From assembly GCA_947489315.1 (NCBI GenBank), contig CANLCX010000001.1, positions 375,501 to 439,500 on the forward strand: a DNA stretch of 64,000 bases, in the 5' to 3' direction. The notes under the pieces are model-generated. The model made no database searches, was not told the DNA's origin, and saw only the letters and a list, made by a program, of their open reading frames with translations. This document shows, piece after piece, positions 2,843 to 55,871 of this stretch. Source of the stretch: an uncultured Sphingomonadaceae bacterium. GTDB taxonomy: Bacteria > Pseudomonadota > Alphaproteobacteria > Sphingomonadales > Sphingomonadaceae. Each line of letters opens with the position of its first letter. Positions within the stretch are counted from its first letter, which is position 1. The translations under genes were made by a program, and so were the position numbers.

Positions 2843-3606
2843 TCCTGAAACATCTTGGCACTACCGGGTTGATAGCCTGAGCCAGGCTCTAGAAACCGCC
2901 GGCGCTGTTCGCGCGCCTGTTCCTGGGCGCTGGCCCGCTGTGCTGCTTCGAGGTTCTGCGCGCGGCCCTGTGCTGCAATAACCGCCGTGAGGTCGGAAAT
3001 CTGCTGGGCTTGCAGCGCGAGGAGTTGATTGCCAGCTTGCGTCGCTTGCAAGGCACCGGTTGCAGACTGGCTTGCACCAACAAGCGCCGACATCTGGCTG
3101 CGATTGGTGTCGATATTGCCGACAACACCGGCTTGCACGCGCATGGCGTCCTGCAATCCGGCAACTGTTGTCTGCCAGCGGTCCCTGGCACCATCAATCA
3201 GGGCCCGATCGGTGTCAGTCATCGAAGCTGCGCCATAGGTGGTCTCGAAGGCCTGATCGATTTGTTGCACGTCAAAGGCAATCTGCTGCGCCTCGCTCAA
3301 AAGCGATTGTGTCCGAGCCACCGATTGCTGCAATTGCTGGAGCGAGGAATAGGGCAAGCTTGTCAGGTTGCGTGCCTGGTTCATCAACATCTGCGCCTGG
3401 TTTTGCAGTGCAGAAATCTGGTTGTTGATCTGTTCGAGTGCACGGGCGGCTGAGAGCACGTTCTGAGCATAGTTGGTGGGATCATAGACGATCCGCCCAA
3501 ATCCGAACGCTTGGGCTGGAGGTGTCAGAACCGGTGTTGCCGCAAGTGGGCCGGCGAGAAGCAGCGCCACCGCAAATTGGCGCACACGACGTTGTTTGAT
3601 ACTCAT
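2839..3606 (-). CDS. trbJ: TrbJ/VirB5-like conjugal transfer protein
   Basis: Periplasmic, probably pilus-tip-associated component (VirB5-like), 255 residues. It has a cleavable signal peptide (residues 1 to about 33, ending near AQA) and the family hallmark VYDPTNYAQNVLSAARALEQINNQI. A long Gln-rich helical body follows, with coiled-coil character. The start overlaps trbE by 4 nt. The position between trbE and trbK is canonical. Confidence 0.94.
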   Translation of the reverse strand: MSIKQRRVRQFAVALLLAGPLAATPVLTPPAQAFGFGRIVYDPTNYAQNVLSAARALEQINNQISALQNQAQMLMNQARNLTSLPYSSLQQLQQSVARTQSLLSEAQQIAFDVQQIDQAFETTYGAASMTDTDRALIDGARDRWQTTVAGLQDAMRVQAGVVGNIDTNRSQMSALVGASQSATGALQATQAGNQLLALQAQQISDLTAVIAAQGRAQNLEAAQRASAQEQAREQRRRFLEPGSGYQPGSAKMFQD

Positions 3607-6122
3607 GAGGTTATTTCCTTTTCTGAGTTGGTTGGATTGCGTGGAAGATCGAGCGTCATTTGAGCGTCGGCATCTGGCGCAGCATTGTCTGGATCCAGAT
3701 TGGTGAGATCGGGGATCAGATCAGCAGCCCAGTCGGCGCCGCGTTCGGCCAGCCAGGCGGCGGCAAAACCATCCCGCTTATGCTCAGTCAGGATGCGGGT
3801 GATCGCCGCTTGATCGTCTTTCGAGGATGTTGCGGTGAAGGCGAGCGCGACCTCGCCGAGGCCAAGCTCAAACAGCCGATTGCCGCGCCGCGACTGGCAG
3901 TAGTAGTCGCGCTTGGGCGTTGCGCGGGCGAGAATCTCGATCTGCCGGTCGTTTAGCCCGAAGCGGCGGTAGATAGTCGTGATCTGCGGCTCAATTGCCC
4001 GTTCGTTTGGGAGAAACAGCCGAGTTGGACAGCTTTCGATGATCGCTGGTGCAATAGCTGAGCCGTCGATGTCCGACAGCGACTGGGTAGCAAAGATGAC
4101 GCTGGCGTTTTTCTTGCGCAAGGTCTTCAGCCATTCGCGTAATCGCCCGGCAAAGCCCTCGTCATCCAGCGCCAGCCAGCCTTCATCGATGATCAGCAGG
4201 GTAGGCGATCCGTCAAGTTGGCCTTCGATCTTGTGAAACAGATAGGCGAGGACAGCGGACGCCGCGCCAGTCCCGATCAACCCTTCGGTCTCAAAGGCCT
4301 GAACAGACCCCTTGCCAAGGTGTTCGTCCTCAGCATCGAGCAAGCGGCCAAAGCGACCACCGACGCAATAGGGCTGCAGGGCGCGTTTCAACTCGTGTGA
4401 TTGTAGCAAGACGGACAGACCGGTGAGTGTTCGCTCTTGAATGGGTGCAGACGCGAGCGATGACAGCGCCGACCAGAGATGATCTTTCATCTCCGGTGTC
4501 ACGGTGATGCCTTCGCCCGCCAGGATGCTGGAAACCCAGCCAGCTGACCAGCTACGTGTCGCGGCATCATCAATGCGCGCGAGTGGCTGAAGCGTAACCG
4601 GTTCCGACATTTCGTCAGACAGCCCGCCGCCGAGATCATGCCAATCGCCACCCATGGCGAGTGCCGCAGCCCGGATTGATCCACCGAAATCGAAGGCGAA
4701 GACCTGGGAGTTTTCGTAACGGCGAAACTGCAGCGCCATCAAGGCGAGCAGTACCGACTTGCCCGCCCCGGTTGGTCCGACAACCAATGTGTGCCCAACA
4801 TCGCCGACATGAAGAGAGAACCGAAACGGGGTTGCGCCTTCGGTCTGGCCGAAGAGCAGCGGGGGTGCTGCCAAATGCGCGTCCCATTCCGACCCTGCCC
4901 AGACCGCGGAGAGTGGGATCATGTGCGCGAGGTTGAGCGTCGAGACGGGCGGCTGGCGCACATTGGCGTAAACATGGCCCGGCAGAGAACCCAGCCAGGC
5001 CTCGACCGCGTTGACGGTTTCGACGATGCAGGTGAAGTCGCGGCCCTGGATCACCTTCTCGACAAGGCGCAGCTTCTCATCCGCAATCCTCGGATCTTTA
5101 TCCCAGACTGTCACAGCCGCGGTGATATAGGCTTCACCAATCAGGTCAGAGCCGAGTTCTTGTAGCGCGGCATCGGCATCCATCGCCTTGTTATGGGCGT
5201 CTGTATCGAGCAGCGCCGAGGCTTCGTTGGTCATGATTTCCTTGAGAATGGCGGCAATCGACTTGCGTTTCGCGAACCATTGGCGCCGGATCTTGGCGAG
5301 CAGCTTTGTCGCATCCGTCTTGTCGAGCATGATTGCGCGAGTTGACCAGCGATAGGGGAAGGCGAGCCGGTTGAGATCATCCAGGATGCCCGGCGTTGTC
5401 GCACTTGGGAAACCAGTGATTGTGAGGATGCGCACATGTGCGTCTCCCAGCATTGGCTCTAGGCCAGCAGTTAAGGGTTGATCGGCGAGTAATGCGTCGA
5501 GATGCATCGGCACTTCTGGGACACGGACCCGCTGCACCTTGGTTGAGATCGTGGCATGGAGATAGGTGAGTGTCTCAGCGTCATTGAGCCAGATGCATTC
5601 GGGCATAAAGTTTTCGATGAGTTGCAGCACACGATCGGAGCGATCGACAAAACCAGCCAGTGTCTCGCGGGCATCGGCACTGTACGTGTGTTCGCGGCCC
5701 TCGTAGAGAAACCGTTCAGCTCGTGCGGCTTCTTCAGCGGGTGGCAAGAATAGCAGCGTCAGAAAATAGGCGGACTCGAAATGAGCGCCTTCTTCTTCAA
5801 ATTGCGCCCTGCGTTCGGTATCGACCAGTGCCGATGCCGCATCAGGAAATATGCTGTTGGGATAGGAACTGGCAGGCACGCGATGGGCTTCTACAAACAC
5901 CGCCCATCCAGATCCAAGACGACGCAGCGCATTGTTTATGCGGCCAGCCACCGCGACCAGTTCGGCGGGCACGGCGCTGTCGAGATCGGGACCGCGAAAC
6001 CGTGCGGTGCGTTGGAACGACCCGTCCTTGTTCAACACAACACCTTCGCCAACAAGTGCGGCCCAAGGCAGGAAATCAGCCAGGTGATTTGAGGTGCGAC
6101 GATACTCGGCAAGGTTCATCAT
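3603..6122 (-). CDS. trbE: TrbE/VirB4 conjugation ATPase
   Basis: VirB4-family ATPase that powers pilus assembly and substrate transfer at the inner membrane. It has 839 residues, which is normal. The N-terminal CagE/TrbE domain is followed by the Walker A GPTGAGKS at residues 449-456 and a Walker B LLIIDEGW near residue 640. A second ATG three bases in (6119) could also be used. It lies 3 nt from trbD and overlaps trbJ, within one tight operon. Confidence 0.96.
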   Translation of the reverse strand: MMNLAEYRRTSNHLADFLPWAALVGEGVVLNKDGSFQRTARFRGPDLDSAVPAELVAVAGRINNALRRLGSGWAVFVEAHRVPASSYPNSIFPDAASALVDTERRAQFEEEGAHFESAYFLTLLFLPPAEEAARAERFLYEGREHTYSADARETLAGFVDRSDRVLQLIENFMPECIWLNDAETLTYLHATISTKVQRVRVPEVPMHLDALLADQPLTAGLEPMLGDAHVRILTITGFPSATTPGILDDLNRLAFPYRWSTRAIMLDKTDATKLLAKIRRQWFAKRKSIAAILKEIMTNEASALLDTDAHNKAMDADAALQELGSDLIGEAYITAAVTVWDKDPRIADEKLRLVEKVIQGRDFTCIVETVNAVEAWLGSLPGHVYANVRQPPVSTLNLAHMIPLSAVWAGSEWDAHLAAPPLLFGQTEGATPFRFSLHVGDVGHTLVVGPTGAGKSVLLALMALQFRRYENSQVFAFDFGGSIRAAALAMGGDWHDLGGGLSDEMSEPVTLQPLARIDDAATRSWSAGWVSSILAGEGITVTPEMKDHLWSALSSLASAPIQERTLTGLSVLLQSHELKRALQPYCVGGRFGRLLDAEDEHLGKGSVQAFETEGLIGTGAASAVLAYLFHKIEGQLDGSPTLLIIDEGWLALDDEGFAGRLREWLKTLRKKNASVIFATQSLSDIDGSAIAPAIIESCPTRLFLPNERAIEPQITTIYRRFGLNDRQIEILARATPKRDYYCQSRRGNRLFELGLGEVALAFTATSSKDDQAAITRILTEHKRDGFAAAWLAERGADWAADLIPDLTNLDPDNAAPDADAQMTLDLPRNPTNSEKEITS

Positions 6123-11815: not shown

Positions 11816-13801
11816 TCACATATCTATGCCGTCCTCCGGATCGAGCGATGCTTGTCGTGCGTTCAGCCGCGCCTGTCGGTCGAACTGCGAAAGTTGTGCG
11901 GCACGGTCCGTCGTCGACCTATGCAGATCGGGCTCGAACTCATTTTCCATAGGCTTCACGTCGTCTGGTACTTGTACCTGATCCAATTCCGCCTGCTGTC
12001 GTTGTTCGTGCCGCGAGTCGCTCCCCTCTTCGCGATCTGGCCGGTCGGCGGGATCGGGGATGTCCGGTCGGGGCGGTAGCGGCCATTCGCTCCAGTCGTC
12101 CGTTTGAGAACCTACTGCGTTTTCTGGAACCGGAGGCGGAAGGATGCGCGCCTGAAACTGCGCGTCCTCGAAATAGCGCGCCTTCTTGGCTCTGATCGGC
12201 GGTGTGCCGGCCACCATGACGATCTCGTCGGCGGGGGGGAGCTGCATGACCTCACCGGGGGTGAGCAGTGGCCGCGCTGTCTCCTGCCGGCTGACCATCA
12301 GGTGCCCAAGCCAGGGCGACAACCGGTGGCCGGCATAGTTCTTCATCGCCCGAAGCTCGGTCGCGGTGCCGAGCGCATCGGAGACCCGCTTAGCGGTGCG
12401 CTCGTCGTTGGTCGCGAAGCTCACCCGGACGTGGCAATTGTCGAGGATCGAGTTGTTCGGCCCGTACGCCTTTTCGATCTGGTTGAGCGACTGCGCGATC
12501 AGGAAGCTCTTCAATCCGTAGCCCGCCATGAAGGCGAGCGCGCTTTCGAAGAAATCCAGACGGCCGAGCGCCGGGAACTCATCGAGCATGAGGAGAAGAC
12601 GGTGGTGCTGTGCATGTCCATCGAGGTCCTCGGTCAGTCGGCGGCCGATTTGATTGAGGATGAGGCGGATGAGCGGCTTGGTACGGTTGATGTCCGACGG
12701 CGGCACGACGAGATAGAGAGTGATCGGCGCGGCGCTTTCGACCAGGTCCGCGATGCGCCACTCGCACCGCCGTGTGACCTTGGCGACGACTGGGTCGCGA
12801 TAAAGACCGAGAAATGACATGGCGGTCGAGAGGACGCCTGAGCGTTCGTTGCCCGACTTGTTGAGGAGTTCGCGCGCCGCGCTTGCGACCACCGGATGTG
12901 GCCCGTCCTCCCCCAGATGTGCCGTCGCCATCATCGCCCGCAAGGTCGCTTCAATCGGACGCTTGGGATCGGAGAGGAAGGCGGCAACGCCCGCAAGCGT
13001 CTTGTCAGATTCCGCGTAGAGCACGTGCAGGATTGCGCCGACGAGGAGAGCGTGGCTGGTCTTCTCCCAGTGATTGCGCTTTTCCAGCGAGCCTTCCGGA
13101 TCGACAAGGATGTCGGCGATATTCTGGACATCGCGCACTTCCCATTCGCCACGCCGAACTTCCAGCAACGGATTGTAGGCCGCCGACTGAGCATTGGTCG
13201 GATCGAACAGCAACACGCGGCCATGCCTGGACCGAAATCCGGATGTGAGTTGCCAGTTTTCGCCCTTGATATCGTGAACGATGGCCGAGCCGGGCCAGGT
13301 CAGGAGCGTCGGGATGACTAGGCCGACACCCTTGCCGGAGCGTGTCGGCGCGAAGCAAAGCACATGTTCCGGTCCGTCATGGCGGAGATAGCTGCCTTCT
13401 AGGCGCCCCAGCACCACGCCGTCCGGCTGGAAGAGCCCGGCACGTTTGACGTCTTTCGACGTCCCCCAACGCGCCGATCCGTAGGTGTCGACATCCTGTG
13501 CCTCGCGCGCACGAAGCACGGACAGGAATACTGCCATGCCGACAGCAGCGAACCCACCTGATGCTGCGATGATCGCCCCTTCAATGAAGATTGGTGGGGC
13601 GTAGGCGTCATAGGCATACCACCACCAGAAGAAGGTCGGCGGATAGTAGACGGGCCATCCCCAGACTTCGAACCAGGGCTCGCCAAGTTGGGGTTGGAAG
13701 CCGAGCCGCAGCGCTGTCCACTGCGTCGCCGTCCATGTCGCCATAAGCACAATGAGCGAGACGATGATGATCTGACCCCAGAGGATTTTCGTTGCGGGCA
13801 T
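11816..13801 (-). CDS. traG: TraG/VirD4 type IV coupling protein
   Basis: Coupling ATPase that brings the relaxase-DNA complex to the Trb channel. It has 661 residues. Two N-terminal membrane segments (about 10-28 and 72-95) precede Walker A APTRSGKG at 151-158, and Walker B LMLDEFPALG near 405. The C-terminal tail is polar. ATG at 13801 follows an AAGGAGAAG sequence. It is followed closely by copG. Separation from the relaxase gene by a cargo block is unusual but seen in mosaic ICEs. Confidence 0.96.
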   Translation of the reverse strand: MPATKILWGQIIIVSLIVLMATWTATQWTALRLGFQPQLGEPWFEVWGWPVYYPPTFFWWWYAYDAYAPPIFIEGAIIAASGGFAAVGMAVFLSVLRAREAQDVDTYGSARWGTSKDVKRAGLFQPDGVVLGRLEGSYLRHDGPEHVLCFAPTRSGKGVGLVIPTLLTWPGSAIVHDIKGENWQLTSGFRSRHGRVLLFDPTNAQSAAYNPLLEVRRGEWEVRDVQNIADILVDPEGSLEKRNHWEKTSHALLVGAILHVLYAESDKTLAGVAAFLSDPKRPIEATLRAMMATAHLGEDGPHPVVASAARELLNKSGNERSGVLSTAMSFLGLYRDPVVAKVTRRCEWRIADLVESAAPITLYLVVPPSDINRTKPLIRLILNQIGRRLTEDLDGHAQHHRLLLMLDEFPALGRLDFFESALAFMAGYGLKSFLIAQSLNQIEKAYGPNNSILDNCHVRVSFATNDERTAKRVSDALGTATELRAMKNYAGHRLSPWLGHLMVSRQETARPLLTPGEVMQLPPADEIVMVAGTPPIRAKKARYFEDAQFQARILPPPVPENAVGSQTDDWSEWPLPPRPDIPDPADRPDREEGSDSRHEQRQQAELDQVQVPDDVKPMENEFEPDLHRSTTDRAAQLSQFDRQARLNARQASLDPEDGIDM

Positions 13802-16788: not shown

Positions 16789-18528
16789 TCAGAGCCCAAT
16801 CCCCCGGCTTCGTCCGAAGTCCCAATCGACGCCGCCATTTCCGCGCGTGACGCCTGAGATGTGTTTGCCGAGATGCTTCTCGACGGACGGTGTCCAGGGC
16901 ACGAGTTGGAATCCGAGGCCATCGTCGATCATCGCGAAACGGCCCGAGGCGAGCGCGATGCGCCGCTGATAGGTGCCGGCGACATATTCCCCTGATGCAG
17001 ACGGCACGTATGGGCGGCCGAGCTCTTCCGACAGTTGTTCGCCGACCGCATCCAGTTCTCCCTTGCGCAGCGTGTTCAGCAAGTCGCGATTGAAGATCAC
17101 ACGCTGACCTTGCCTCATCGCTAAGCCTTCACCAATCAAATGCTCGGCGCGCCGTTCCAGCGCATCGCTGACCTCGGCGCCAAACCCGCCACCGCCGAGC
17201 GGCGTCGGTTCGCGTGCGATCGCCTGCCGATCGAGCCAGGTCGCCCCCGACGCGGTCACTTGCCGTTCTGTCGACAGGTCAGAGCGGACCGCGAGCACCA
17301 CGCGGCGGCGGCCCTTCGCATCGTCGAATTTCCGCAACTCGACGATTGATCCGGGTGCGCCGTCTCCGGCCGCGTCGATATGCGGCAGCCGGACATGATG
17401 GGTGCGACCGTCGACACCGTCGATCACCGCATAAGCCGTTCCCTTGAGTTCGTCATCGAGACCGCGATCGACCAGTCGGCCGATGACAGGATCGCTCAGG
17501 CTTTCGCCAGCCAGCACGTAGCTCGATGCGCCTCGCTCAATGCCGCGCTCAGCAAGCCCGCGATGGATGCGCTTGATGATGTCGCCGCGCTCACCGAGTT
17601 CGCGCAGCGTCGCCTCTGCGCTCTCCTCCATCACCCACTGACCGGGGCTGATCTGACTGGCGAGGCCGAGGGATTCAAGCCTGCGGATTCGTCCGACCTT
17701 GAGCGTGTGAAGTTCGTCTGGCCCGCGTCCGCGGCGGGGCGCGAGGTCGATGATGCCGTGGGGATTGGCGTCACGCTGGAGTTGGCGGTCGAGGGTGGTC
17801 CAGCGTTCGCTGTCGATCTGTCGTTCAAGGGATTTGCGGATGTCGTGGTCGGTGCGTGGACCGAGTTCCAACGTGATGAAATCGCGGGCGCGATCGCGCA
17901 TACCCTCCCTGATGTAGTCCCGGGAGATCACTAGGTCGTCGCCATCATCCCGCACGCCGCGCACGATGAGATGAATATGCGGGTGTTCGGTGTTCCAGTG
18001 GTCAACGGCGACCCAGTCGAGTTTGGTTCCGAGATCTTTTTCCATCTGCCGGGCAAGGTCGGCGGTGAAGGATCGGAGGTCCGCCATCTCCAGCGCATCG
18101 TCAGGTGAGACAATGAAGCGAAAATGATGACGGTCATCTTCGCAGCGCTCGGCAAATGTCTTTGCGTCTATTTCTCCCTTGCCTGGCCCGAACAGCTTTG
18201 CCTTCTCTCCATCGTGGGTCACGCCCTCCCGGCGCAAATAGGTGAGATGTTTTGCAAGCGGCGCGCTGCGTCCATTGTTGCGGACGACACGCGCCTTGAC
18301 GACGGCGCCTCGGGAGCGTGCCGTGATGAATCGATTGGCTTGTACGGCCGCTCGTTTCCCGCGCCCGAAGTGGGAGCGGTTGCCGGGCACGATCATCCCC
18401 TTGCGCGAGATACCGGAACCCGCCTTCTGTGCCGCCGCCATTGCCTGTACGATGAAGGGTCGTGCGCGCCGGCTGGTCGAGGAGCGGATGCGGCCAGGCC
18501 GGATGCGGAAGTCGTCTTCGTCGCTCAT
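16789..18528 (-). CDS. MOBP-type relaxase (VirD2-like, DUF3363)
   Basis: Relaxase that nicks oriT and pilots the strand through the coupling protein. It has 579 residues from ATG 18528. The N-terminal relaxase domain has the three-His metal motif HWNTEHPHIH at 177-186 and an upstream HHFRFIVSPDD motif. The C-terminal DUF3363 region starts near residue 280. A longer upstream extension lacks similarity to the family. It is the last gene of the rdfS-repA-traF operon, with a 244-bp gap before it that may hold oriT. Confidence 0.92.
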   Translation of the reverse strand: MSDEDDFRIRPGRIRSSTSRRARPFIVQAMAAAQKAGSGISRKGMIVPGNRSHFGRGKRAAVQANRFITARSRGAVVKARVVRNNGRSAPLAKHLTYLRREGVTHDGEKAKLFGPGKGEIDAKTFAERCEDDRHHFRFIVSPDDALEMADLRSFTADLARQMEKDLGTKLDWVAVDHWNTEHPHIHLIVRGVRDDGDDLVISRDYIREGMRDRARDFITLELGPRTDHDIRKSLERQIDSERWTTLDRQLQRDANPHGIIDLAPRRGRGPDELHTLKVGRIRRLESLGLASQISPGQWVMEESAEATLRELGERGDIIKRIHRGLAERGIERGASSYVLAGESLSDPVIGRLVDRGLDDELKGTAYAVIDGVDGRTHHVRLPHIDAAGDGAPGSIVELRKFDDAKGRRRVVLAVRSDLSTERQVTASGATWLDRQAIAREPTPLGGGGFGAEVSDALERRAEHLIGEGLAMRQGQRVIFNRDLLNTLRKGELDAVGEQLSEELGRPYVPSASGEYVAGTYQRRIALASGRFAMIDDGLGFQLVPWTPSVEKHLGKHISGVTRGNGGVDWDFGRSRGIGL

Positions 18529-18540
18529 GCCGAATGTCCT

Positions 18541-18670
18541 GCACATCGTGCAAACGCATTGAATTTGCGGAGAAACAACGATGATCGCAGGCTGCGCGTG
18601 TGCTGCGCACATCGTGAGTGCATCACATAACCCTTTGAAAACCCACAACCGTCCACAGCCGCACATCGTC
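18541..18670. repeat. Three GCACATCGT repeats upstream of relaxase; oriT candidate
   Basis: GCACATCGT(G/C) occurs at 18541, 18607 and 18661 in the same orientation, in the 244-bp gap between the lytic transglycosylase and relaxase genes. The middle copy overlaps a GC-rich partial dyad (GTGTGCTGCGCAC). Repeats of this kind near a relaxase start are typical of oriT/accessory-protein binding sites or an operator; the nick site cannot be assigned by eye. Confidence 0.4.
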
Positions 18671-19920: not shown

Positions 19921-20466
19921 TCATCGGGAATCCGCACGCCAGCGGTAGCCGCCCGTTCCATCCTCGTCGGTCCACAGCGGGACCGCCGAGCCGATGATCG
20001 AGGTGGCGGGGATCGGGCCGAAATACCGTCCGTCGAGGCTGTTCTCGACGCTCCGGTTCATGAGGAAGACTTCGCCTGCCGCGATGCGCCGGCAGCCCTG
20101 CCAGACGGGCATCGGTCGACCGATGGAATCGTGCCGAAGCGCCTCTCCCATCGCCACTCCATCGACGGTGATGTTGCGGTCGATGCGGCAGACGGTCTGA
20201 TCCGGCAGGCCGACGATGCGCTTCAAGAGCGGGATGTCCGGCGGCAGATAACGGCGTTCCGTCACGAAGCGTTCGTGCCGTTCAGGCGGATTGACGGCGA
20301 CGAAGTCCTGTACGTCGATCTGGTCGACGGGGTGCACCTGGTAGAACCCGATCGGAGCGGACGGGCTGGCGTTCCAAATGACACGCGTGGGGAAATCGAC
20401 GAAAGCAGACGCTGCGATCGCACCGATCGCCGCGGCGCCGACGAGGAGCAGCGCTCGGTGTTTCAT
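19921..20466 (-). CDS. traF: TraF-like S26 signal peptidase
   Basis: Membrane-anchored serine peptidase (181 residues) of the S26/TraF family, which in RP4 matures and cyclises the TrbC pilin. One N-terminal helix (6-24) is followed by the catalytic Ser in SPSAPIGFY near residue 36 and the general-base Lys in LLKRIVGLP near residue 82. The start overlaps the DUF2840 stop (ATGA). Its substrate is likely the trbC product at 6389-6721. Confidence 0.93.
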   Translation of the reverse strand: MKHRALLLVGAAAIGAIAASAFVDFPTRVIWNASPSAPIGFYQVHPVDQIDVQDFVAVNPPERHERFVTERRYLPPDIPLLKRIVGLPDQTVCRIDRNITVDGVAMGEALRHDSIGRPMPVWQGCRRIAAGEVFLMNRSVENSLDGRYFGPIPATSIIGSAVPLWTDEDGTGGYRWRADSR

Positions 20467-20939
20467 TGGCCGACCCTCCGCCGCTTCAGAAAGGCGGTAT
20501 GACGGGTCGGTGTGTAGCGCCGTGGCTCAAGACGTGCGGCCATTCGGTTGTGAACGTGCCGCCAATATTCCGGTGGAACATCGGCGGGATCGATGTCGAT
20601 CGCGTCGATGGCATCGACCGCCTGCAAAACACGCGCGACCTTCGGCCAGCCCTCGGCATGTAGAAGGATGTCGCCACCGGGCCGCACGAAGGGGAGCGTC
20701 TGATATGCTTCGCCGGGTTCGACCGCGCGCACGATGTCGATACGCGACAGGACCGTGCCATAGTCGTTGGACTGCCAGCGCACGAAGGCGAAGACGCTTC
20801 CGGGCGCGAAGCTGACCATACGCCGCTGGCGATTGATGATCCGTTCGCCGGCCTCGCGGCCGAAGCGAAGCCAGTGTTCAACCTGCTTCTCGATCCAGAT
20901 GAGCTCAACTTGGGTATGGTGGGACGCGAACGGGATCAT
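20463..20939 (-). CDS. DUF2840 family protein
   Basis: 158-residue protein from ATG 20939 (MIPFASHHTQVELIWIEKQVEHWLRFG), matching the DUF2840 family that lies between repA and traF in Trb-type ICEs. It contains the block RRMVSFAPGSVFAFVRWQSNDYGT and the C-terminal RMAARLEPRRYT. Function unknown. Both ends overlap neighbours by 4 nt, so the repA-DUF2840-traF group is translated as a unit. Confidence 0.88.
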   Translation of the reverse strand: MIPFASHHTQVELIWIEKQVEHWLRFGREAGERIINRQRRMVSFAPGSVFAFVRWQSNDYGTVLSRIDIVRAVEPGEAYQTLPFVRPGGDILLHAEGWPKVARVLQAVDAIDAIDIDPADVPPEYWRHVHNRMAARLEPRRYTPTRHTAFLKRRRVGQ

Positions 20940-22027
20940 CGCTCCGCTCCCGGAATAGAGCTTGGGCGACGGCGCGGATGCGTTTCGGTCGCGCGGGATT
21001 GCGTCTCTGCGGATCTGTTTTCCACACTCGCTCGCGCGCAACAAATGTTAGATTCTTGGTTAGACTCTAAGTTAGAGGCGCGATTTTCGTTTTTGTCTTC
21101 GGACGTTAGGCCCGGTTTCGGTTCCCGATGGCACGACACCGCGGTTCCCGATGGCCCGATAGGCCGGGTTCCCGATAGCACGAGGCCGTCAACATCCTGT
21201 CCACAGGGCGCGGGCTCGAAGGCGAGCAGCGTCTTGCCGCCAATCGTGACCTCGATCGACAGAATGTATCCGGGCAGTGGCTGGCGGCGAACGATGTCGC
21301 GCAGTTCATAGGCGAAGCGCTTGAAGGGCGAGAGGCTGCCGGATTTGAGATAGAGATGGCGAAACTCGAACCGCCATCCGGCGCGCTGCTTGCCGCCGTG
21401 TTTGCGCACGATCCGGTAGAGCCAACGGTCGAAGCCGCCGGTCAGCGAGAAATAGGCGCGGTCGATGGTGAGGATCAGCGCGTCGTCGAGGACGGCGCTG
21501 TAGAACCAGTCCGGCACGATCAGTTCGATGCCGGCAGGATTGCCTTGATGATCGGTGCGCTCGACCCATTCGTTGATCCAGGAGAAGCGGTGCCGTCGTC
21601 CCAAGGCGGGCTGGCGGATCGTCGTCGCCACTGTGGTCGATTGAAGCCGATCGAGCGCGGCCTTGAGCCGTTTGTAGTCGCGTGAACTGACGCCGCGACC
21701 GATGAAGGTGAGAATCTCGTAAGGCGTCGCCGCCATGAGGCGCGACGTGCGCAGCCCGGCGTCGCGCGCTTCGACAAGCTGGCTGGCCGCCCAGATCAGG
21801 ATGTCTGCATCCCAAATGGTCGCCATGCCGTGTTCGGGGACCGCCTCAACGCGTATAGCGATATCGGCAACCTCATAGTCGATCGGTTTAACCCGATGCG
21901 ACTTGGACAGGCTGAAAAAGGGATAGGCCATGAGATCCTGCGCATCGCGGGGCGCGAGGTCGCCGCCGAGAGCATGAAACAGCTCCAGTTGGGCGCGCTC
22001 GGACTGGGTGGGTTGTTTCCTCATCAT
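20936..22027 (-). CDS. repA: RepA replication initiator protein
   Basis: 363-residue plasmid-type replication initiator (RPA family, PF10134). Conserved blocks include MAYPFFSLSKSHRVKPIDYE (N-terminal) and WDADILIWAASQLVEARD, with DRWLYRIVRKHGG in the DNA-binding core. The C-terminal 80 residues are low-complexity and coincide with iteron-like repeats. Such genes let an excised ICE replicate transiently. Start chosen at ATG 22027; ATG 22024 and GTG 22042 are alternatives. No strong ribosome binding site is visible, and coupling to the rdfS-like gene is likely. Confidence 0.9.
   Translation of the reverse strand: MMRKQPTQSERAQLELFHALGGDLAPRDAQDLMAYPFFSLSKSHRVKPIDYEVADIAIRVEAVPEHGMATIWDADILIWAASQLVEARDAGLRTSRLMAATPYEILTFIGRGVSSRDYKRLKAALDRLQSTTVATTIRQPALGRRHRFSWINEWVERTDHQGNPAGIELIVPDWFYSAVLDDALILTIDRAYFSLTGGFDRWLYRIVRKHGGKQRAGWRFEFRHLYLKSGSLSPFKRFAYELRDIVRRQPLPGYILSIEVTIGGKTLLAFEPAPCGQDVDGLVLSGTRPIGPSGTAVSCHREPKPGLTSEDKNENRASNLESNQESNICCARASVENRSAETQSRATETHPRRRPSSIPGAER
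21120..21179. repeat. Iteron-like direct repeats within repA
   Basis: GGTTCCCGAT(G/A)GC occurs three times at 21120, 21143 and 21167, spaced 23 and 24 bp, inside the 3' part of repA. Near-helical phasing and association with an initiator gene fit iterons of a replication origin, though repeats this few could also be a coding artefact. Confidence 0.45.
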
Positions 22028-22044
22028 GGTGGGACCAAACACGC

Positions 22045-22326
22045 TCAGCGTGGCCCGCCGCTGGATTTCGCAAGTTTCTCATCATCATGGCGTTTGGCGG
22101 GCAGAACCGATCCGCGCGGATCGGAGGTGGACGTCACAGCGCCGCGATCAGCCCAGGCCTGCAGATCGTCTATGGAATAGACGACGCGCCCGCCAAGTTT
22201 GCGGTAAGCGGGGCCAGTTCCGTAGGTGCGATGTTTTTCCAATGTGCGGCCGGACAGGCTCAGGAAGCGCGCCGCTTCGGGCGTTCTCAGGTAGCGTGGC
22301 GGTAGGTCGGCAGTATTGGCGGGCAT
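22045..22326 (-). CDS. RdfS/AlpA-like helix-turn-helix excisionase
   Basis: 93-residue DNA-binding protein: PPRYLRTPEAARFLSLSGRTLEKHR forms the MerR/AlpA-like helix-turn-helix, followed by GPAYRKLGGRVVYSIDDLQAWAD, the excisionase-type wing. ATG 22326 has GGAGG upstream. It is the first gene of the repA-DUF2840-traF-DUF736-SLT-relaxase operon. In ICEMlSymR7A the corresponding first gene, rdfS, is the excision directionality factor activated by FseA; the same role is inferred here. Confidence 0.8.
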   Translation of the reverse strand: MPANTADLPPRYLRTPEAARFLSLSGRTLEKHRTYGTGPAYRKLGGRVVYSIDDLQAWADRGAVTSTSDPRGSVLPAKRHDDEKLAKSSGGPR

Positions 22327-22809
22327 GATCTGGCCTCCGTGAATGCGATGGAGCCACTCACAAGGAGTGGCGAACAACGGTCACGATGGCGAAGCAGGAC
22401 AGCAAAGGGGGATGGGGAAGTTGGGGGTGCTAAAATCTCACCCTCAGTCGAGTCAATATAGGCGGTTGCGGTCGATAGATTGTAGACGTTTGGTTAGCGC
22501 GCCTGATTGCGGCCTGAAGAAGCTTCTTACCTGTCGATCAGCGGCCCGGTTTGTGCTTTCGCTTGAGATGCCCGGTAAGCAATGGGGTATAGAAGTCATC
22601 GAACAGGAGCTTGTGCGGAAGCGTGGTGTCTAGTGTCGTGCGCTTCTTGATCCCACTGCGTGTTTCTCGGCATTTTGGCTGACATCCCCTAGCGACCGGT
22701 ACACACCTACGGCTCCTGGTAGAGGCCCCGCCCCAAGGCCGTCATAAACTGAGTTCTGACAACGGCGGTTTTCCGGTAAATCTTCCACGCCCCGCCTAAG
22801 CAAGAAGGG
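22327..22809. other. Promoter/leader region of the rdfS-like operon
   Basis: About 480 bp without a supported gene. A GCCACTC-N5-GAGTGGC hairpin lies at 22353-22371 in the leader just upstream of the rdfS-like ribosome binding site. By analogy with ICEMlSymR7A the FseA-type activator should act here. The rest, towards the GST gene, holds no recognisable signal. Confidence 0.45.
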
Positions 22810-23448
22810 CTAGTCTGCTGCAGCAAAGTGATCGAGCTGGTCTTGATAGGCCTTTTTGAAGGCCGGTCGCGATGTCGCCTGTTCGACATAGGCACGACAA
22901 TTTGAATAATCGGCAAGCGCATCGAAGCGATCGGCCAAGCGAAGCACATCAGCCATGATGATGTCTGCTATAGAGAACGCGTCCGTCAGCCAATCGCGTC
23001 CCTGGAGATAAGTCTCGACGTGCCCGAGCCGCGCGGCAAGGAATCCGTCCAAAGCCTGTCGCCCTGGTGTCTGTTCCTCATCCTCTGTGAACTTGAAAAT
23101 CGTGAAGGGTAGAACGGCCATCTCAACAGAATTGAGCCCCGCAAATAGCCATTTGATCACTTCATTACGCCCTTTCGGGTCGGTCGGTAGCAATGCTTCG
23201 CTGGTTTCTGCGACATAGAGCAAGTCGGCTCCACTTTCGAATATGGAAATCTCGCCATGCGTTAGCCACGGTACTTGGCCGAAAGGCTGATGTTGAAAGT
23301 GTTCTTCACCGCGATCCTTGAAAGGTGTACTCTCGATTTTGTAAGGAAATCCAGCCTCTTCCAACGCCCACCGAAGACGAATGTCCCGAACATAGCCTCG
23401 AGGTGCTTCGGGAACCCAATCGAATGTCGTTATCGTCATCTCATTCAT
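22810..23448 (-). CDS. Glutathione S-transferase family protein
   Basis: 212-residue GST: an N-terminal thioredoxin-like domain (YVRDIRLRWALEEAGFPYKIE, then FGQVPWLTHGEISIFESGADLLYVAE with the cis-Pro and glutathione Glu-Ser pair) and an all-helical C-terminal domain. ATG 23448 lies eight bases after GAGGAGAG. It forms a cargo cluster with the YciI and MarR genes, which suggests a detoxification or stress unit. Substrate unknown. Confidence 0.85.
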   Translation of the reverse strand: MNEMTITTFDWVPEAPRGYVRDIRLRWALEEAGFPYKIESTPFKDRGEEHFQHQPFGQVPWLTHGEISIFESGADLLYVAETSEALLPTDPKGRNEVIKWLFAGLNSVEMAVLPFTIFKFTEDEEQTPGRQALDGFLAARLGHVETYLQGRDWLTDAFSIADIIMADVLRLADRFDALADYSNCRAYVEQATSRPAFKKAYQDQLDHFAAAD

Positions 23449-23505
23449 GATGCCATCTCTCCTCCTCAGCATTGACTGTCGGATGTCAGCTTTGCGACCC
23501 GCTCA

Positions 23506-23832
23506 TTAACCTATGGGCCAAACTTCCACGACCCCATGCGCCACAGCACAGGGAACGCCCGACACCTTTTGGACCGCATCTTCCAGCGACTCTGCTTCGA
23601 TTATCGCAAAGCCAGCAACCGGAAGATCTGCGGACATAAACTGTCCGTTCTTGGTTTTGACACCGGACGCTTCGGGATTGCGAACCTGCACAGGCGGACC
23701 TGCAACCCCCATAATGGCACCTTGGGCGACAAGCTGTGCGTCCTGTTCGTGGGCGGCGTTGCGGATCGCGACGGGAGTGCGATCATACCCATCTCGGTTT
23801 CCGTAACCGATGGTTAAAAACTTCGCCATCAT
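23506..23832 (-). CDS. YciI-family protein
   Basis: 107-108-residue YCII/DGPF-like protein: MAKFLTIGYGNRDGYDRT at the start and a C-terminal FAIIEAESLEDAVQKVSG-type helix, as in PF03795. It is related to muconolactone isomerase-like ferredoxin folds; the role is unknown. Two adjacent ATGs (23832, 23829) follow GGAGC. It overlaps the MarR stop by 4 nt, so it is co-transcribed with the MarR regulator. Confidence 0.8.
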   Translation of the reverse strand: MMAKFLTIGYGNRDGYDRTPVAIRNAAHEQDAQLVAQGAIMGVAGPPVQVRNPEASGVKTKNGQFMSADLPVAGFAIIEAESLEDAVQKVSGVPCAVAHGVVEVWPIG

Positions 23833-24302
23833 TTGCTCCTTTCAATATTCTGTTGGCCGAGCACGCCAATCCCACTGTGTAGCGCTTCAAGGTCGAGACC
23901 ACCCTCAAGTGCGAGCAGCCTGTCCACGGCGTCATGCTCGTCGCGCCAGACTGGCAATGCCTCGGCCAGCAGCATGCGACCTTCGTCGGTAAGCGAAAGC
24001 CGGCGAGCGCGTGTGTCTTTCGGGTCGGCAGAAGTCAGCACAAGTCCGCGACGCACAAGTGGCTTTAGCGCCGCAGTCAGTGTCGTGCGGTCCATGGCGA
24101 GGAATGCTGCGACTTCGCCCATGGCCGGTGGCTGGTCGCGGTTCAGCGACATCATCAGGGAGAACTGTCCCTGGGTGATCCCGAACGACCGGAATGCTGC
24201 ATCAAAGCGCCGGGCGAGCGCGCGCGCGGCCCGCTGTGTCCGAAAGCATATGCAGCGGTCGCGAACCTCGACGGTCGCGGAGGGGGGGAGCGAGGCAGGC
24301 AT
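23829..24302 (-). CDS. MarR-family transcriptional regulator
   Basis: 157-residue winged-helix regulator: FGITQGQFSLMMSLNRDQPPAMGEVAAFL, then MDRTTLTAALKPLVRRGLVLTSADPKDTRARRLSLT (split here), the typical MarR wing. I use ATG 24302 because the alternative ATG 24323 would place a perfect palindrome in the coding part. It likely represses its own operon with YciI and GST. Confidence 0.85.
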   Translation of the reverse strand: MPASLPPSATVEVRDRCICFRTQRAARALARRFDAAFRSFGITQGQFSLMMSLNRDQPPAMGEVAAFLAMDRTTLTAALKPLVRRGLVLTSADPKDTRARRLSLTDEGRMLLAEALPVWRDEHDAVDRLLALEGGLDLEALHSGIGVLGQQNIERSK

Positions 24303-24309
24303 AATATAC

Positions 24310-24321
24310 GTTGATATCAAC
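24310..24321. promoter_or_regulatory. Candidate MarR operator
   Basis: GTTGATATCAAC, a perfect 12-bp palindrome in AT-rich DNA 8 bp upstream of the chosen MarR start. This is the usual place and form of a MarR autoregulatory site. Confidence 0.5.
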
Positions 24322-24380
24322 ATAAATATAATGTGTCAATCGAGGTCACTCTTGGCATACCTAAGCAAGTTTTCGTTGAG

Positions 24381-24848
24381 TCACTTTCGCCGTTGGTGAC
24401 GCAGTAGTTTGCGATAACCGCCAGCGACCATTGTTTGTCCGTCTTTGACGAGTCTGATTGTGCTATCCCGCAGCGCCGATGTTTTCCAAGGATCAGCTGC
24501 AACACGGTGGATGCCAAAAATCCGATTGGCAATTTCTCGGTACGTCGCACCAGCAAAATGCCCATCGGTGGCTTGCAGCATTAAACGCAACCGACGCCGT
24601 CGCTGCGTTGTCAGGCGCGTATCGGGGGTTTGGGTACGACCGTTCAGAGCGCGCCAAAGCCGTGTGAGCGCCTCGATGCGATCAAGACCATTCTCATCAA
24701 GCGGTATGAGGGCGGCGAGCGGTTGGTTGGGTCGCGTTTCACCCAGAAACAAAAGGGAGATCGCAGCAAGCCCTTGCCCGTGGGTGATGCTCAACCCGTC
24801 CAGGTCACTGCGTATGGTTTCTGGATCAAGTTCCGGGAAAGACGCCAC
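24381..24848 (-). CDS. DUF2285 C-terminal part of an FseA-like frameshifted activator (Msi171-like)
   Basis: As an isolated frame this starts at GTG 24848 and gives 155 residues with the DUF2285 domain (RRLRLMLQATDGHFAGATYRE, then GGYRKLLRHQ). The same frame is open a further 36 codons upstream to 24956 without any start codon, and that stretch (WLPDADTGTVILTA...) has the look of conserved protein. It joins the DUF6499 frame by a +1 slip at 24957-24960, giving a 256-residue fusion. DUF2285 is the domain of FseA and QseM in ICEMlSymR7A. The fused protein would activate the rdfS-like operon; this is inferred. Confidence 0.85.
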   Translation of the reverse strand: MASFPELDPETIRSDLDGLSITHGQGLAAISLLFLGETRPNQPLAALIPLDENGLDRIEALTRLWRALNGRTQTPDTRLTTQRRRRLRLMLQATDGHFAGATYREIANRIFGIHRVAADPWKTSALRDSTIRLVKDGQTMVAGGYRKLLRHQRRK

Positions 24849-24930
24849 ATGCGTATTTGAAACCGGTGTCTGCGCAGTGAGAATGACCGTCCCCGTATCG
24901 GCATCAGGAAGCCAATGTATGCTCGCTTCT

Positions 24931-25152
24931 TTAGAAGTTTGGTCGGGGCGAACCGGGAAATCGTAACCCCCAACGCCGACGCATGAGGCGCGTCAAGCGT
25001 CGAGGGTCCGTCCTTGGTTGTTGAGTTCGGGCGAAATCGCTTTGATAGTCTTCGTTCCGGCGCAACCACTCCCAGGCGATATCCGAGACCGGGAGATCGT
25101 CGACGTAGTCATATGCCGATGCCAAGCGCCACCGGGATGGGTCATGAGACAT
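24931..25152 (-). CDS. DUF6499 N-terminal part of an FseA-like frameshifted activator (Msi172-like)
   Basis: 73-residue frame from ATG 25152 (GGAGGG upstream): RWRLASAYDYVDDLPVSDIAWEWLRRNEDY, then LMRRRWGLRFP. The in-frame product ends soon after in a short unrelated tail (GSPRPNF). Phe65 is encoded by UUU followed by C; slipping to UUC continues in the DUF2285 frame. In ICEMlSymR7A, msi172 has the same conserved motif and a proven +1 tRNA-Phe slip. The short product would be made most of the time. Confidence 0.85.
   Translation of the reverse strand: MSHDPSRWRLASAYDYVDDLPVSDIAWEWLRRNEDYQSDFARTQQPRTDPRRLTRLMRRRWGLRFPGSPRPNF
24955..24963 (-). promoter_or_regulatory. Predicted +1 programmed ribosomal frameshift site
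   Basis: Minus-strand reading CGA-UUU-CCC in frame 0 becomes UUC-CCG-GUU after a one-base forward slip of tRNA-Phe. Frame 0 hits a stop at 24931; frame +1 is open to 24381. The site falls at the end of the RRRWGLRF block of the DUF6499 part, the same place as in msi172 of ICEMlSymR7A. Confidence 0.75.
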
Positions 25153-25265: not shown

Positions 25266-25538
25266 TCAGCTCCGAGCTTCCCGCAAGAGATGGCGATAGC
25301 CATGCTTCGTCATCCAATGCGCACGGGTGAGATGGCTGTCATGGATATTGCGAGCGCGCACGGGATCAATGTCGGGATCAAGGTCAAACAGAAGTTGTAC
25401 GACTTCCCGCCAGTCGGCCCCATCGGCATTGGCATCGAGAAGCCGTAGATAGAGTTTCATATGGGTCCGGTCGTAACTTGTGAGTTCTGCACTCTCTGGC
25501 GGTTGATCTTGGAATCCAGTGTTCACTCTCGCCCCCAA
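25266..25538 (-). CDS. QseM-like DUF2285 antiactivator
   Basis: Up to 90 residues (TTG start 25538; a shorter start at ATG 25460 is possible). The body YDRTHMKLYLRLLDANADGADWRE, then HDSHLTRAHWMTKHGYRHLLR shares the L-x-L...D...GA-x-x-RE...GYR-x-LLR pattern with the DUF2285 part of the neighbouring frameshift protein. In ICEMlSymR7A, QseM of this type and size binds and inhibits both TraR and FseA. Here it would restrain the FseA-like fusion. Divergent from the XRE gene. Confidence 0.8.
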   Translation of the reverse strand: MGARVNTGFQDQPPESAELTSYDRTHMKLYLRLLDANADGADWREVVQLLFDLDPDIDPVRARNIHDSHLTRAHWMTKHGYRHLLREARS

Positions 25539-25747: not shown

Positions 25748-25969
25748 ATGGATATGCGCAAACTTGTGGGTCGGAACTTTTCCCGCCTGCGTCGGGAAAA
25801 GGGTCTGACGCAGGAGCAGGTCGAAGAGCGCTCGGGCTTTAGCCAGCAGTATCTCAGTAGCCTTGAAAGAGGGCGCCGCAATCCGACGGTTATAACGCTC
25901 TATGAATTGGCTGTGGCCCTGGAGGTCAGTCATTTAGACTTGGTGATGCCAGATGAGGAGGATGGCTAG
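25748..25969 (+). CDS. QseC-like XRE-family regulator
   Basis: 73-residue controller-type helix-turn-helix protein: RNFSRLRREKGLTQEQVEERSGFSQQYLSSLERGRRNP covers nearly a whole XRE domain (split by the recognition helix SQQYLSSLE). Size and divergent placement match QseC, which autoregulates and represses or activates qseM depending on its level, giving a bistable transfer switch. It resembles restriction-modification C proteins, but no R-M gene is adjacent; the hsd genes are 14 kb away. Confidence 0.85.
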   Translation: MDMRKLVGRNFSRLRREKGLTQEQVEERSGFSQQYLSSLERGRRNPTVITLYELAVALEVSHLDLVMPDEEDG

Positions 25970-47529: not shown

Positions 47530-48894
47530 CTAGGTTTCATATTTGACAGCTGGGGCCAATCGCCTTGTGTTGTCGTTGCCAACTGCAGCCTGAATAAATT
47601 GATCAAGTGCAGCTTTCCGTGATGCTCGATCCAAAGCATATGCGGTCTGCTTGAATTCAACGCCGTCTAGAAGGCAATCTATGAATCCGGCGATTGTGTC
47701 GGCGGCCATGATGAGTGCCGTGTCGAGGGTGTGGACGTACTTACTAGTAACCGTCCCTTTCGCATGCCCGACCAACGCGGCGATGGTGATTTCAGTAAAG
47801 CCAAGGTCATTGGCGGTGCTCGCAAAACTGTGACGTAAAATATGAGGCGTGATGTCCGCAAGGGTGGTATCTGCAAGTAATTGTTTCCAAAGCGTAGGGA
47901 AGTTGCCAATGGGGCCATCTTCGCTGCGCCGCCCCGAAAAGACGTACGAGCCGGTTCTAGTGGTGCTCCAGTTCTCCAAGAGTTCGACCGCTGGAAGTCC
48001 GATCGGACGTATTGAGGCACCTTCTTTCGTCATGGATAAGCGAAGGCAGCTATTATTCAGGTCGACGTCGCTCCACTTGAGTCCGATGATCTCACCACGG
48101 CGGCATCCCGTTAGCGCGAGTTGTTGGATGATATCGGCGGCCATGGCGAGCTTGGCGTCGCCCCTCGCATCGCGGAGAACTTTGCCTAAGAGTCCGTATT
48201 CGGCCGGGGTTAGCCTTCGATCTCTCACCTGATCCTTCGGCTTCTTGATGCCGTGTGCGACATTGGTTTTGATGACGCCTGCGTCAATTGCGTATCCAAG
48301 GACCGCGCCGAGCAGCCCCACCGCTCGGGCTGCGGTGCCCCGGCCACCCCGCAAGATAGATTTCCCTCGCAGATTTCCTGTCTTTTTCGTCCGGCGTGTT
48401 TTCCCGACGATGATGTCATTCATAGCCTTCGTGATGTCAGCGCGGGTTAGATCGCGGACCCGCTTTCTGCCGAGTAGAGGAATGATGTGGCCATTGATGC
48501 ACCCGATGTCCGTACCAATCGTCGAGGGTTTTTTCGGTGTTCCACCTTTCCCGAGAATGAGGCCGGCCTCCATGTCGGCGATGTATCGATTGCAGAGCTC
48601 TTTAACCGTCATGGCATAGTGGTCGAGCTGCTTTTGTTCAGCGGGGTTATCACCTTGCGCAACCCTTCCAAGCAGTGCTTTGGCCTCGCGACGAGCTGTT
48701 TCGGCCGTCCAGATCCCGTGAAGGCCAATCGTGAAACGCCGCGATCGCCCACCTGCACGATACTGGATGACGTAGCTGCGTTTCCCGGATGCAAACACTC
48801 GGAGCCCGAAACCGGGCAAATTGTCATCCCAAACCACGTAGTCCTTTTCGCGTCTCTCAGTGCTATCTACGAGGCGCTTGTTGAGCTTTGGCAT
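47530..48894 (-). CDS. int: Tyrosine recombinase integrase of the ICE
   Basis: 454-residue P4-type integrase. The N-terminal DUF4102-like arm-binding domain (WDDNLPGFGLRVFASGKRSYVIQYR) is followed by a core-binding domain and the catalytic domain with Arg in LTGCRRGEIIGLKW, HILRHSFAST (His-x-x-Arg) and LVGHAKGTVTSKYVH (His, Tyr). ATG 48894 follows GGAGG. It lies 175 bp from the tRNA-Arg 3' fragment at 49069-49117, as expected for an integrase using a tRNA attachment site. Confidence 0.95.
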   Translation of the reverse strand: MPKLNKRLVDSTERREKDYVVWDDNLPGFGLRVFASGKRSYVIQYRAGGRSRRFTIGLHGIWTAETARREAKALLGRVAQGDNPAEQKQLDHYAMTVKELCNRYIADMEAGLILGKGGTPKKPSTIGTDIGCINGHIIPLLGRKRVRDLTRADITKAMNDIIVGKTRRTKKTGNLRGKSILRGGRGTAARAVGLLGAVLGYAIDAGVIKTNVAHGIKKPKDQVRDRRLTPAEYGLLGKVLRDARGDAKLAMAADIIQQLALTGCRRGEIIGLKWSDVDLNNSCLRLSMTKEGASIRPIGLPAVELLENWSTTRTGSYVFSGRRSEDGPIGNFPTLWKQLLADTTLADITPHILRHSFASTANDLGFTEITIAALVGHAKGTVTSKYVHTLDTALIMAADTIAGFIDCLLDGVEFKQTAYALDRASRKAALDQFIQAAVGNDNTRRLAPAVKYET

Positions 48895-49068
48895 CGAAGC
48901 CTCCTTCCTGCCAGAGCGTTTCGCGTAAGCACCACGTAAGCACTTGAGAGAAAGCCTTGGCGTATGTCTGGATAGAGACGTCCAATAGATGTCTAATAAA
49001 AACAAGCATAATCAAATTCTTATCGTACCATAGTGCGCTCTATCGTATTCTTCGGAAAGACCTTCGTA

Positions 49069-49117
49069 TTTCCTCCGAAGCCGAAGGTCACAGGTTCGAA
49101 TCCTGTCGGGTGCACCA
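49069..49117 (+). repeat. Attachment site 1: tRNA-Arg(CCG) 3' fragment
   Basis: From the anticodon loop (CTCCGAAG at 49073) to CCA at 49117. The T-arm ACAGG-TTCGAAT-CCTGT is fully paired and the acceptor strand CGGGTGC is present. The 5' half (GCACCCG...) is absent, so this is not a functional gene. It marks the integrase-side end of element 1; an intact tRNA-Arg should lie left of the window. Confidence 0.85.
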
Positions 49118-49159
49118 TTTTCTCTTTTATTACAATTCCTTAAACGCCCCCCCGCAAGC

Positions 49160-54780: not shown

Positions 54781-55139
54781 TGAGTGATGTCGAAACCGAA
54801 CAAGGGATGGAGGAAACCCGGCGTTCAGAGGCTGATATCGCAAAGGAACTGCGGCTCCGCCCCGATCCACCGCGCGTGATGCGATTGTCGCGAAAGGCCA
54901 TCACGGTCCTGGTCGTGGTTGGCGGATTGGGTGTGGGTGCAATCCTGATTGTTGCATTGCATAGTCCCGAAGGAATCGATGGGCCGTCGGAACTCTTCTC
55001 GACTGATCGAATTCAGGAAGCCGAGGGTCTTTCTCAGCTTCCAAGTGACTACGGATCTTTTCCGCAACTGGGCCCACCGCTTCCAGGAGAACTGGGCCGG
55101 CCAGTGTTGTCGGCACAGCAACGGGGAGAGTCCATGCCG
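54780..55139 (+). pseudogene. trbI: trbI remnant, 3' truncated (element 2)
   Basis: About 120 N-terminal residues of TrbI/VirB10: polar start, ELRLRPDPPRVMRLSRK, one membrane helix (TVLVVVGGLGVGAILIVAL) and LPSDYGSFPQLGPPLPGELGRP. After RGES the frame reads antisense trbB sequence and stops at 55250. A normal TrbI has about 400 residues, so the gene is broken. Confidence 0.88.
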
Positions 55140-55141
55140 GT

Positions 55142-55871
55142 GACCGGTGCCCCAAGCCTTAAGCAGGTCGAGCGCTTCGGGTCCGCGCACCTCCCCAATC
55201 GGAATGCGGTCAGGTCGAAGGCGAAGCGAAGATCTAACAAGATCAGATAGTGTTGCGATCCCGTCTTTCGTGCGCAGCGCAACCAGATTAGGCGTCGTAC
55301 ACTGAAGTTCGCGCGTATCCTCGATGAGCACGACACGGTCGGAGGTCTTTGCGACTTCGGCGAGCAGCGCGTTGGTGAGGGTCGTCTTGCCGGTGGATGT
55401 GCCACCTGCGACCAGAATGTTGGAGCGCGATGAAACGGCGTCACGCAGCGCATCTGCAGCGCTCGCGTCCATGATCCCGGCGCGAACATAGTCGTCAAGC
55501 GAGAAAATCGCGACCGCAGGCTTGCGGATTGCGAAGGTCGGGGCCGCAACGACGGGAGGCAGAAGTCCCTCGAACCGCTCACCCGTTCCAGGCAGTTCTG
55601 CGGAAACGCGCGGAGCATCCGCATGAACCTCGGATCCGACGTGATGGGCGACCAGCCGAACGATCCGTTCGCCGTCGTCAGTTGAAAGTGTTTCTCCAGT
55701 GTCTGAAAGGCCCTCGCCCAGACGGTCGACCCATAGCCGACCGTCTGGGTTCAGCATTACCTCGACAACGGTGTCTTCTTTGAGCCAGGCCGCGATGGCG
55801 GGCCCAAGGGCCGTCAACAGCATGCGGGAACCGCGCTCGATCGCTGCTGATTTGAGAGTTTGGACGTTCAT
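55142..55871 (-). pseudogene. trbB: trbB remnant, 3' truncated (element 2)
   Basis: 243 residues of TrbB from MNVQTLKSAAIERGSRM to LLKAWGTGH, including Walker A GGTSTGKT and [11 protein letters not shown]. The His box GIGTIHAG and everything after it are missing; the frame runs on through antisense trbI to 54825. The join with trbI' is tail-to-tail, so an inversion plus deletion removed trbC-D-E-J-K. Confidence 0.9.

Follow-up and report, generated by a model that had tools for sequence, protein, structure and literature searches.

The 64-kb window (64,000 nucleotides, the whole stretch of DNA that was analysed) carries two reading frames on its reverse strand that overlap at CGA-UUU-CCC. The frames, the slip signal and the protein that a +1 slip would yield are placed as follows:

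24931..25152, reverse strand: frame-0 open reading frame (msi172-like), DUF6499 with AWEWLRRN, its form of the AWEFLRRN-like motif of the FseA family; 73 amino acids if no slip occurs
24381..24992, reverse strand: +1-frame open stretch (msi171-like) with bridge, middle part and DUF2285; no start before GTG 24848
24955..24972, reverse strand: putative slip signal TGG GGG TTA CGA TTT CCC, consisting of the SD-like UGGGGG(U) and the UUU-C slip codon
24381..25152, reverse strand: predicted full-length FseA-like activator of 256 amino acids, the product of the +1 slip (from the translation, an AlphaFold2 model and a Foldseek match to RovC)

Frame 0 runs from ATG 25152, with a GGAGG stretch immediately 5' of it, to TAA 24931, and matches PF20109 (DUF6499 / Trans_reg_dom) over the whole 60-position profile (E 1.6e-22). 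Read from 24992 to 24381, the +1 frame encodes 203 amino acids and matches PF10074 (DUF2285 / RovC_DNA-bd) with E 1.7e-38. The earliest ATG, GTG or TTG in this frame is GTG 24848, and the start-less bridge before it (24956-24849) comprises 36 codons. The slip codon UUU lies at 24960-24958 and is followed by the base C at 24957. A fuller signature, TGGGGNYTNNNNTTTY, occurs a single time across both strands of the window, at the slip site. The original prediction had given the frame coordinates, GTG 24848, the 36-codon bridge, the positions of UUU and C and a fusion of 256 residues, and all of these were reproduced from the sequence; the +1 frame extends 12 codons 5' beyond the 24956 given there and is open from 24992. 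In ICEMlSymR7A, msi172 and msi171 are reportedly joined by a slip of tRNA-Phe from UUU to UUC, giving FseA. The DUF6499 and DUF2285 frames here are very probably one gene joined by a ribosomal +1 slip of the FseA type.

The 256-residue fusion was modelled with AlphaFold2 from an input of 76 rows. The model is one compact unit with a pLDDT of 93.6 and a pTM of 0.89. When it was searched with Foldseek, RovC (6xz5) was the sole match under E 0.001 (E 2.8e-6, 17% identity); by sequence alone, RovC was reached with E 0.045. The model thus predicts a RovC-like fold for the fused activator. The DUF2285 part of the FseA-like activator is basic (pI 11.7, net charge +13) and the QseM-like protein encoded nearby is mildly acidic (pI 6.3, net charge -2), a contrast between the DUF2285 domains of FseA and QseM that is described in PMC10359603.

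Neighbouring regulators and the mobile element

The genes and sites on both sides of the fseA-like gene were assigned from profile and sequence matches:

25266..25538, reverse strand: QseM-like putative antiactivator (lone DUF2285 without DUF6499); QseM, PDB 7uqt, phmmer E 4.9e-18; PF10074 E 3.4e-9
25748..25969, forward strand: XRE-type HTH gene, divergent from qseM; PF01381 E 9.3e-17
22414..22440, reverse strand: FseA-box-like inverted repeat TGAGA-17-TCCCC, 5' of rdfS; pattern match
22045..22326, reverse strand: RdfS-like recombination directionality factor (ATG 22326); RdfS, PDB 8dgl, phmmer E 1.6e-9; PF12728
20936..22042, reverse strand: replication initiator protein A family (RPA); PF10134 E 4.4e-87
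20463..21044, reverse strand: DUF2840 protein; PF11000 E 5.2e-74
19921..20466, reverse strand: TraF-like S26 signal peptidase; PF10502 E 8.4e-30; TIGR02771 88.8 bits, under the cut-off of 100.25
16789..18666, reverse strand: RlxS-like relaxase (MobA/VirD2 nuclease and DUF3363); NF041267 576 bits, cut-off 850; PF11843, PF03432
11816..13801, reverse strand: TraG/VirD4 coupling protein; PF02534 E 1.1e-99
3603..6122, reverse strand: TrbE/VirB4-like ATPase of the conjugation apparatus; PF19044 E 9.3e-13; PF03135 E 8.5e-7
47530..49005, reverse strand: tyrosine integrase, probably the element's own; PF00589 E 1.6e-20; PF13356 arm-binding domain
49072..49121, forward strand: probable right attachment site, an imperfect copy (44/50) of the tRNA-Arg(CCG) 3' end

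The QseM-like gene, whose coordinates include a putative start codon, lies directly 5' of fseA in the same direction. The divergent XRE-type HTH gene may be called QseC-like by its position and kind only. The RdfS-like gene is followed by the genes for RPA, DUF2840, the TraF-like peptidase, a transglycosylase, the RlxS-like relaxase, TraG and the TrbE-like ATPase. Among 49 loci with long flanks (our own included), a qseM-like gene was found upstream in 33 and rdfS downstream in 34, with both present in 30. In our locus qseM is present and rdfS lies 2 kb from fseA. The region between fseA and rdfS, 22810-24323, holds a MarR, a weakly YCII-like and a GST gene; fseA and rdfS are close neighbours in 34 of the 49 long-flank loci.

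The box-like repeat is located 114 to 88 nt before ATG 22326, about 25 nt farther from the start codon than the published box. A first regular expression for the box, applied to the rdfS upstream regions, missed our own site, and a looser pattern with fixed spacing, made afterwards, matched it. Of 101 distinct relatives, 24 carried the box pattern, which was chosen after inspection, at -125 to -80 (mean after shuffling 1.34); the other 77 had no match at that place. In a gapped alignment of the 101 rdfS upstream regions an FseA box was not apparent. A search for hexamers (5-of-6 matching, spacing 15-16) returned one unrelated pair at -155 only.

An intact tRNA-Arg(CCG) gene lies about 7.1 kb to the left of the window start, and the integrase adjoins the 44/50 copy of its 3' end. 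The position of the integrase beside this copy suggests an element of about 56 kb, an ICE inserted in tRNA-Arg. A search for exact repeats of at least 15 bases had given one 16-base match that was not adopted as the attachment site; shorter repeats led to the tRNA-Arg copy. In the flanking sequence L221, two truncated 5' parts of tRNA-Arg, spaced by 179 nt, precede the intact tRNA-Arg(CCG) at about 12475-12913 (7.5-7.1 kb before the window start), perhaps left by an earlier use of the site. Outside the probable right end, a T2SSE/TrbB-like ATPase gene at 54825-55871 is perhaps a remnant of another element.

Judged by sequence likeness, the neighbourhood with its QseM-, RdfS-, TraF-, RlxS- and TraG-like genes, the box-like repeat and the integrase beside a tRNA-Arg repeat corresponds to the excision-control module of ICEMlSymR7A. 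A search of the genome for an autoinducer synthase (luxI/traI, PF00765) gave no match, and 14 control genomes were silent too. The LuxR-type domain PF03472 had three matches in the genome, all outside the element, and traR was not found on the element. The quorum-sensing trigger of R7A would be missing or different here. The ICE had been called probably sphingomonad, which the comparisons do not prove: the gene order resembles that of a Sphingopyxis plasmid, but the named matches of highest identity come from rhizobial plasmids and from contigs of Devosia and Mesorhizobium.

Relatives of the split gene

Loci were collected with PF20109 in genome samples of the family (match in at least 135 of 397 genomes), the genus (5/32) and the class (17/289). 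We examined 174 loci, 150 from the family list (our own included), 5 further ones from the genus and 19 from the class; the family list holds the stronger matches, and every place on it was used. Among the matches listed, DUF6499 was matched in 173 of the 174 (not L084), and 171 of these had a downstream DUF2285 (not L060 and L082). The frame relation in the 171, our own included and again among the matches listed, was +1 in 151 and a single ORF in 19, and one (L205) was in +2; the family list alone gave 132 split loci, 16 fused, one in +2 and one without DUF2285. The contig loci L002-L004 (Devosia, Mesorhizobium), which stand outside the 171-locus counts, are also split and have TTT TTT at the site. 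Relatives fused without the shift, which would point to a simple frameshift mutation in our gene, are therefore the minority among the matches listed.

The slip codon was TTT in 145 of the 151 split loci versus 3 of the 19 fused ones, among the matches listed. In these 145 split loci the next base was C (141) or T (4), as re-pairing of tRNA-Phe requires. Beside the site, the Gly codon GGG was present in 104/151 split loci against a background of 14% in the same gene set, and a Leu codon TTG or TTA in 88/151 against 11.5% (both among the matches listed). Split loci retain both UUU and the G-rich stretch, which drift in fused loci, and the survey is thus a comparative argument for the position of the slip. 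Three annotated plasmids share TTT-C at this position, and two of them also have TGGGGG.

Six of the 151 split loci, among the matches listed, lacked TTT at the scored codon: L053 (AGT), L064, L079, L080, L091 and L194. In L080 and L194 a TTTC follows one or two codons farther 3'. In L079 and L091 the scoring script was anchored at a wrong tryptophan, and the fused L083 is also doubtfully anchored. L064 has a stop in the +1 frame beyond the site and counts against a simple shift there. L053 (genome G287), a split gene with AGT as its slip codon, is possibly a dead switch. Counted from the first base of TGG, the +1 frame opens only after 10 nt in L059, L104, L118 and others, and frame 0 stops after 18 nt in L163, L176, L192 and L203. 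If the site is homologous, these overlap limits leave about 8 nt around TTT for the shift.

Selection on the two frames was analysed in 147 split loci that had TTT and sufficient flank, L002-L004 included and the others from the matches listed. Close pairs, 78-99% identical, were compared, and the pairs within each of the following three counts are not independent. Upstream of the slip, 156 close pairs had 719/416/1336 mismatches at the three codon positions of frame 0. In the +1 frame, the first 12 codons 3' of the slip gave 120/66/309 mismatches (111 close pairs), and 36 codons 3' of the slip, the length of the start-less bridge here, gave 499/268/1323 (137 close pairs). Thirty-one disjoint pairs (75-99%) gave 122/71/245. 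The mismatches fall mainly at third positions, those of frame 0 before the slip and those of the +1 frame after it, so the selected frame changes at the slip. The bridge, a lack of whose conservation had been named as evidence against the frameshift, is conserved in the +1 frame among relatives.

A quick tree was built from 164 distinct rows of the matches listed. Of its 17 distinct fused rows, 14 formed one clade, and L081, L124 and L197 were scattered between split rows. Our own gene belongs to a group of 30 rows (support 84) with a single fused row, L124, among the matches listed. L065, L109 and 12 more fused rows make up the clade of single-ORF activators, where the codon at the slip place is variable (TTC, TAC, TTT, TAT). 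In L124 (genome G007), which reads WGCDFPV, a G run shorter by one base apparently fuses the frames; this is possibly a constitutive activator or an assembly error. L124 and the +2 locus L205 share this genome, which is 86% complete with 7% contamination, and errors are possible in it.

A model for the switch and its comparison with known systems

The split might be a simple frameshift mutation, a pseudogene or a sequencing error in a former single ORF, and the 19 single-ORF relatives and the missing G of L124 make this thinkable. It is barely credible, since the same split recurs in 151 of 171 loci with one slip codon in 145 (among the matches listed), most fused rows belong to one clade outside our group, and both frames are under selection. 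Frame conservation, retention of the slip codon and the selection switch at the slip therefore speak against a mutation. It is very unlikely that DUF2285 has an internal start of its own, such as GTG 24848, and associates with DUF6499 as a separate protein without a covalent link. Residues 95-198 of the +1 frame, where PF10074 matches, do lie entirely 3' of this GTG, and QseM, a lone-DUF2285 protein, binds DUF6499 according to PMC10359603; but in relatives the start-less codons before GTG 24848 are selected in the +1 frame, and a slip codon that is kept in split loci and drifts in fused ones argues against two proteins.

There is only a very small chance that the shift takes place on the next codon, with tRNA-Pro moving from CCC to CCG. 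The sequence CCC-G allows it here, and the protein would be identical with RFPV either way. In 56 of the 151 split loci, though, TTT is followed by CGC, on which tRNA-Pro could not slip, and TTT itself is kept in 145 (among the matches listed). A true FseA-type frameshift whose product controls something other than excision has likewise little probability. The MarR, GST and weakly YCII-like genes that now separate fseA from rdfS would fit it; against it, a box-like repeat persists 5' of rdfS with the same spacing as in relatives, and activators can work in trans.

We consider it highly probable that the fseA homologue, through its +1 slip, provides an activator of excision that is antiactivated by the QseM-like protein. 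The frames, the domains, the conserved slip signal, the two-frame selection, the predicted one-unit fold and the gene order were computed here; the slip itself, its low frequency, the pausing, the DNA binding, the activation of rdfS and the antiactivation are carried over from R7A. Ribosomes would translate DUF6499, and the majority would terminate at 24931 and release the 73-residue product. A minority would pause at the SD-like UGGGGG. The P-site tRNA-Phe would then slip by one base from UUU to UUC and continue in the +1 frame to give the 256-residue activator. Binding of the activator to the FseA-box-like repeat 5' of the RdfS-like gene would turn on the excision and transfer genes of the ICE of about 56 kb. 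The QseM-like protein, encoded just 5' of fseA, would bind DUF6499 and restrain the activator. The frames, the domains and the 151 of 171 loci that are split among the matches listed support the prediction of an FseA-type +1 frameshift that unites DUF6499 with DUF2285 on an ICE. For the further claim that excision is gated by the frameshift, the RdfS-like gene, the FseA-box-like repeat and the QseM-like gene are present, and we infer such gating.

The 73-residue DUF6499 product, in excess over the activator and carrying the QseM-binding helix, might also soak up the QseM-like protein, though we think this rather unlikely. If true, the frameshift frequency would determine how much activator is made and also how much antiactivator stays free, a substitute for a quorum-sensing trigger on an element seemingly without one.

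In prfB (RF2), as at the fseA site, an SD-like stretch lies 5' of the +1 slip codon. The fseA site differs from it in having no A-site stop codon and a spacer longer than that of prfB. RovC of Yersinia (6xz5) has the overall fold predicted for the activator, at 17% identity; it is a single chain made without a shift and an activator of a type VI secretion system (in part after PMC10359603).

The plasmids pMC4 of Sphingopyxis indica (L225) and pMl1 of Sinorhizobium medicae (L224) share TGG GGG, a Leu codon and CGA TTT CCC at the join, but their FseA-like loci are on plasmids. In pMC4 the order DUF2285, DUF6499, DUF2285, HTH, RepA ... DUF2840 is the same, except that parA and a CopG gene separate repA from DUF2840. 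In pMl1, QseM-like and RdfS-like genes are absent nearby among the genes in an incomplete table.

The comparison with ICEMlSymR7A of Mesorhizobium japonicum was drawn from published descriptions and not from the R7A sequence. Its FseA (msi172-msi171) likewise has DUF6499 and DUF2285 in two frames with a +1 shift and a UGGGGG-encoded WGL beside the site, for which stalling is suggested (PMC10359603), and homologues of QseM, RdfS, TraF and RlxS are together on one element in both cases. In contrast to R7A, traR/traI were not found on the element here, qseM is directly 5' of fseA, where traI2 precedes msi172 in R7A (PMC5882170), and three genes lie between fseA and rdfS. The mechanism and its breadth are already in print: PMC10359603 describes a conserved +1 site across alpha-, beta- and gamma-proteobacteria and a +1 shift required by about 61% of 4709 FseA homologues. 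The locus here is another example of the known FseA switch. Its difference from R7A would be regulatory, as no autoinducer synthase was found in the genome (the controls being silent) and LuxR-type domains occur only outside the element. As a well-supported example, it takes the translational control of ICE excision beyond symbiosis islands, to an element on which quorum sensing is not visible.
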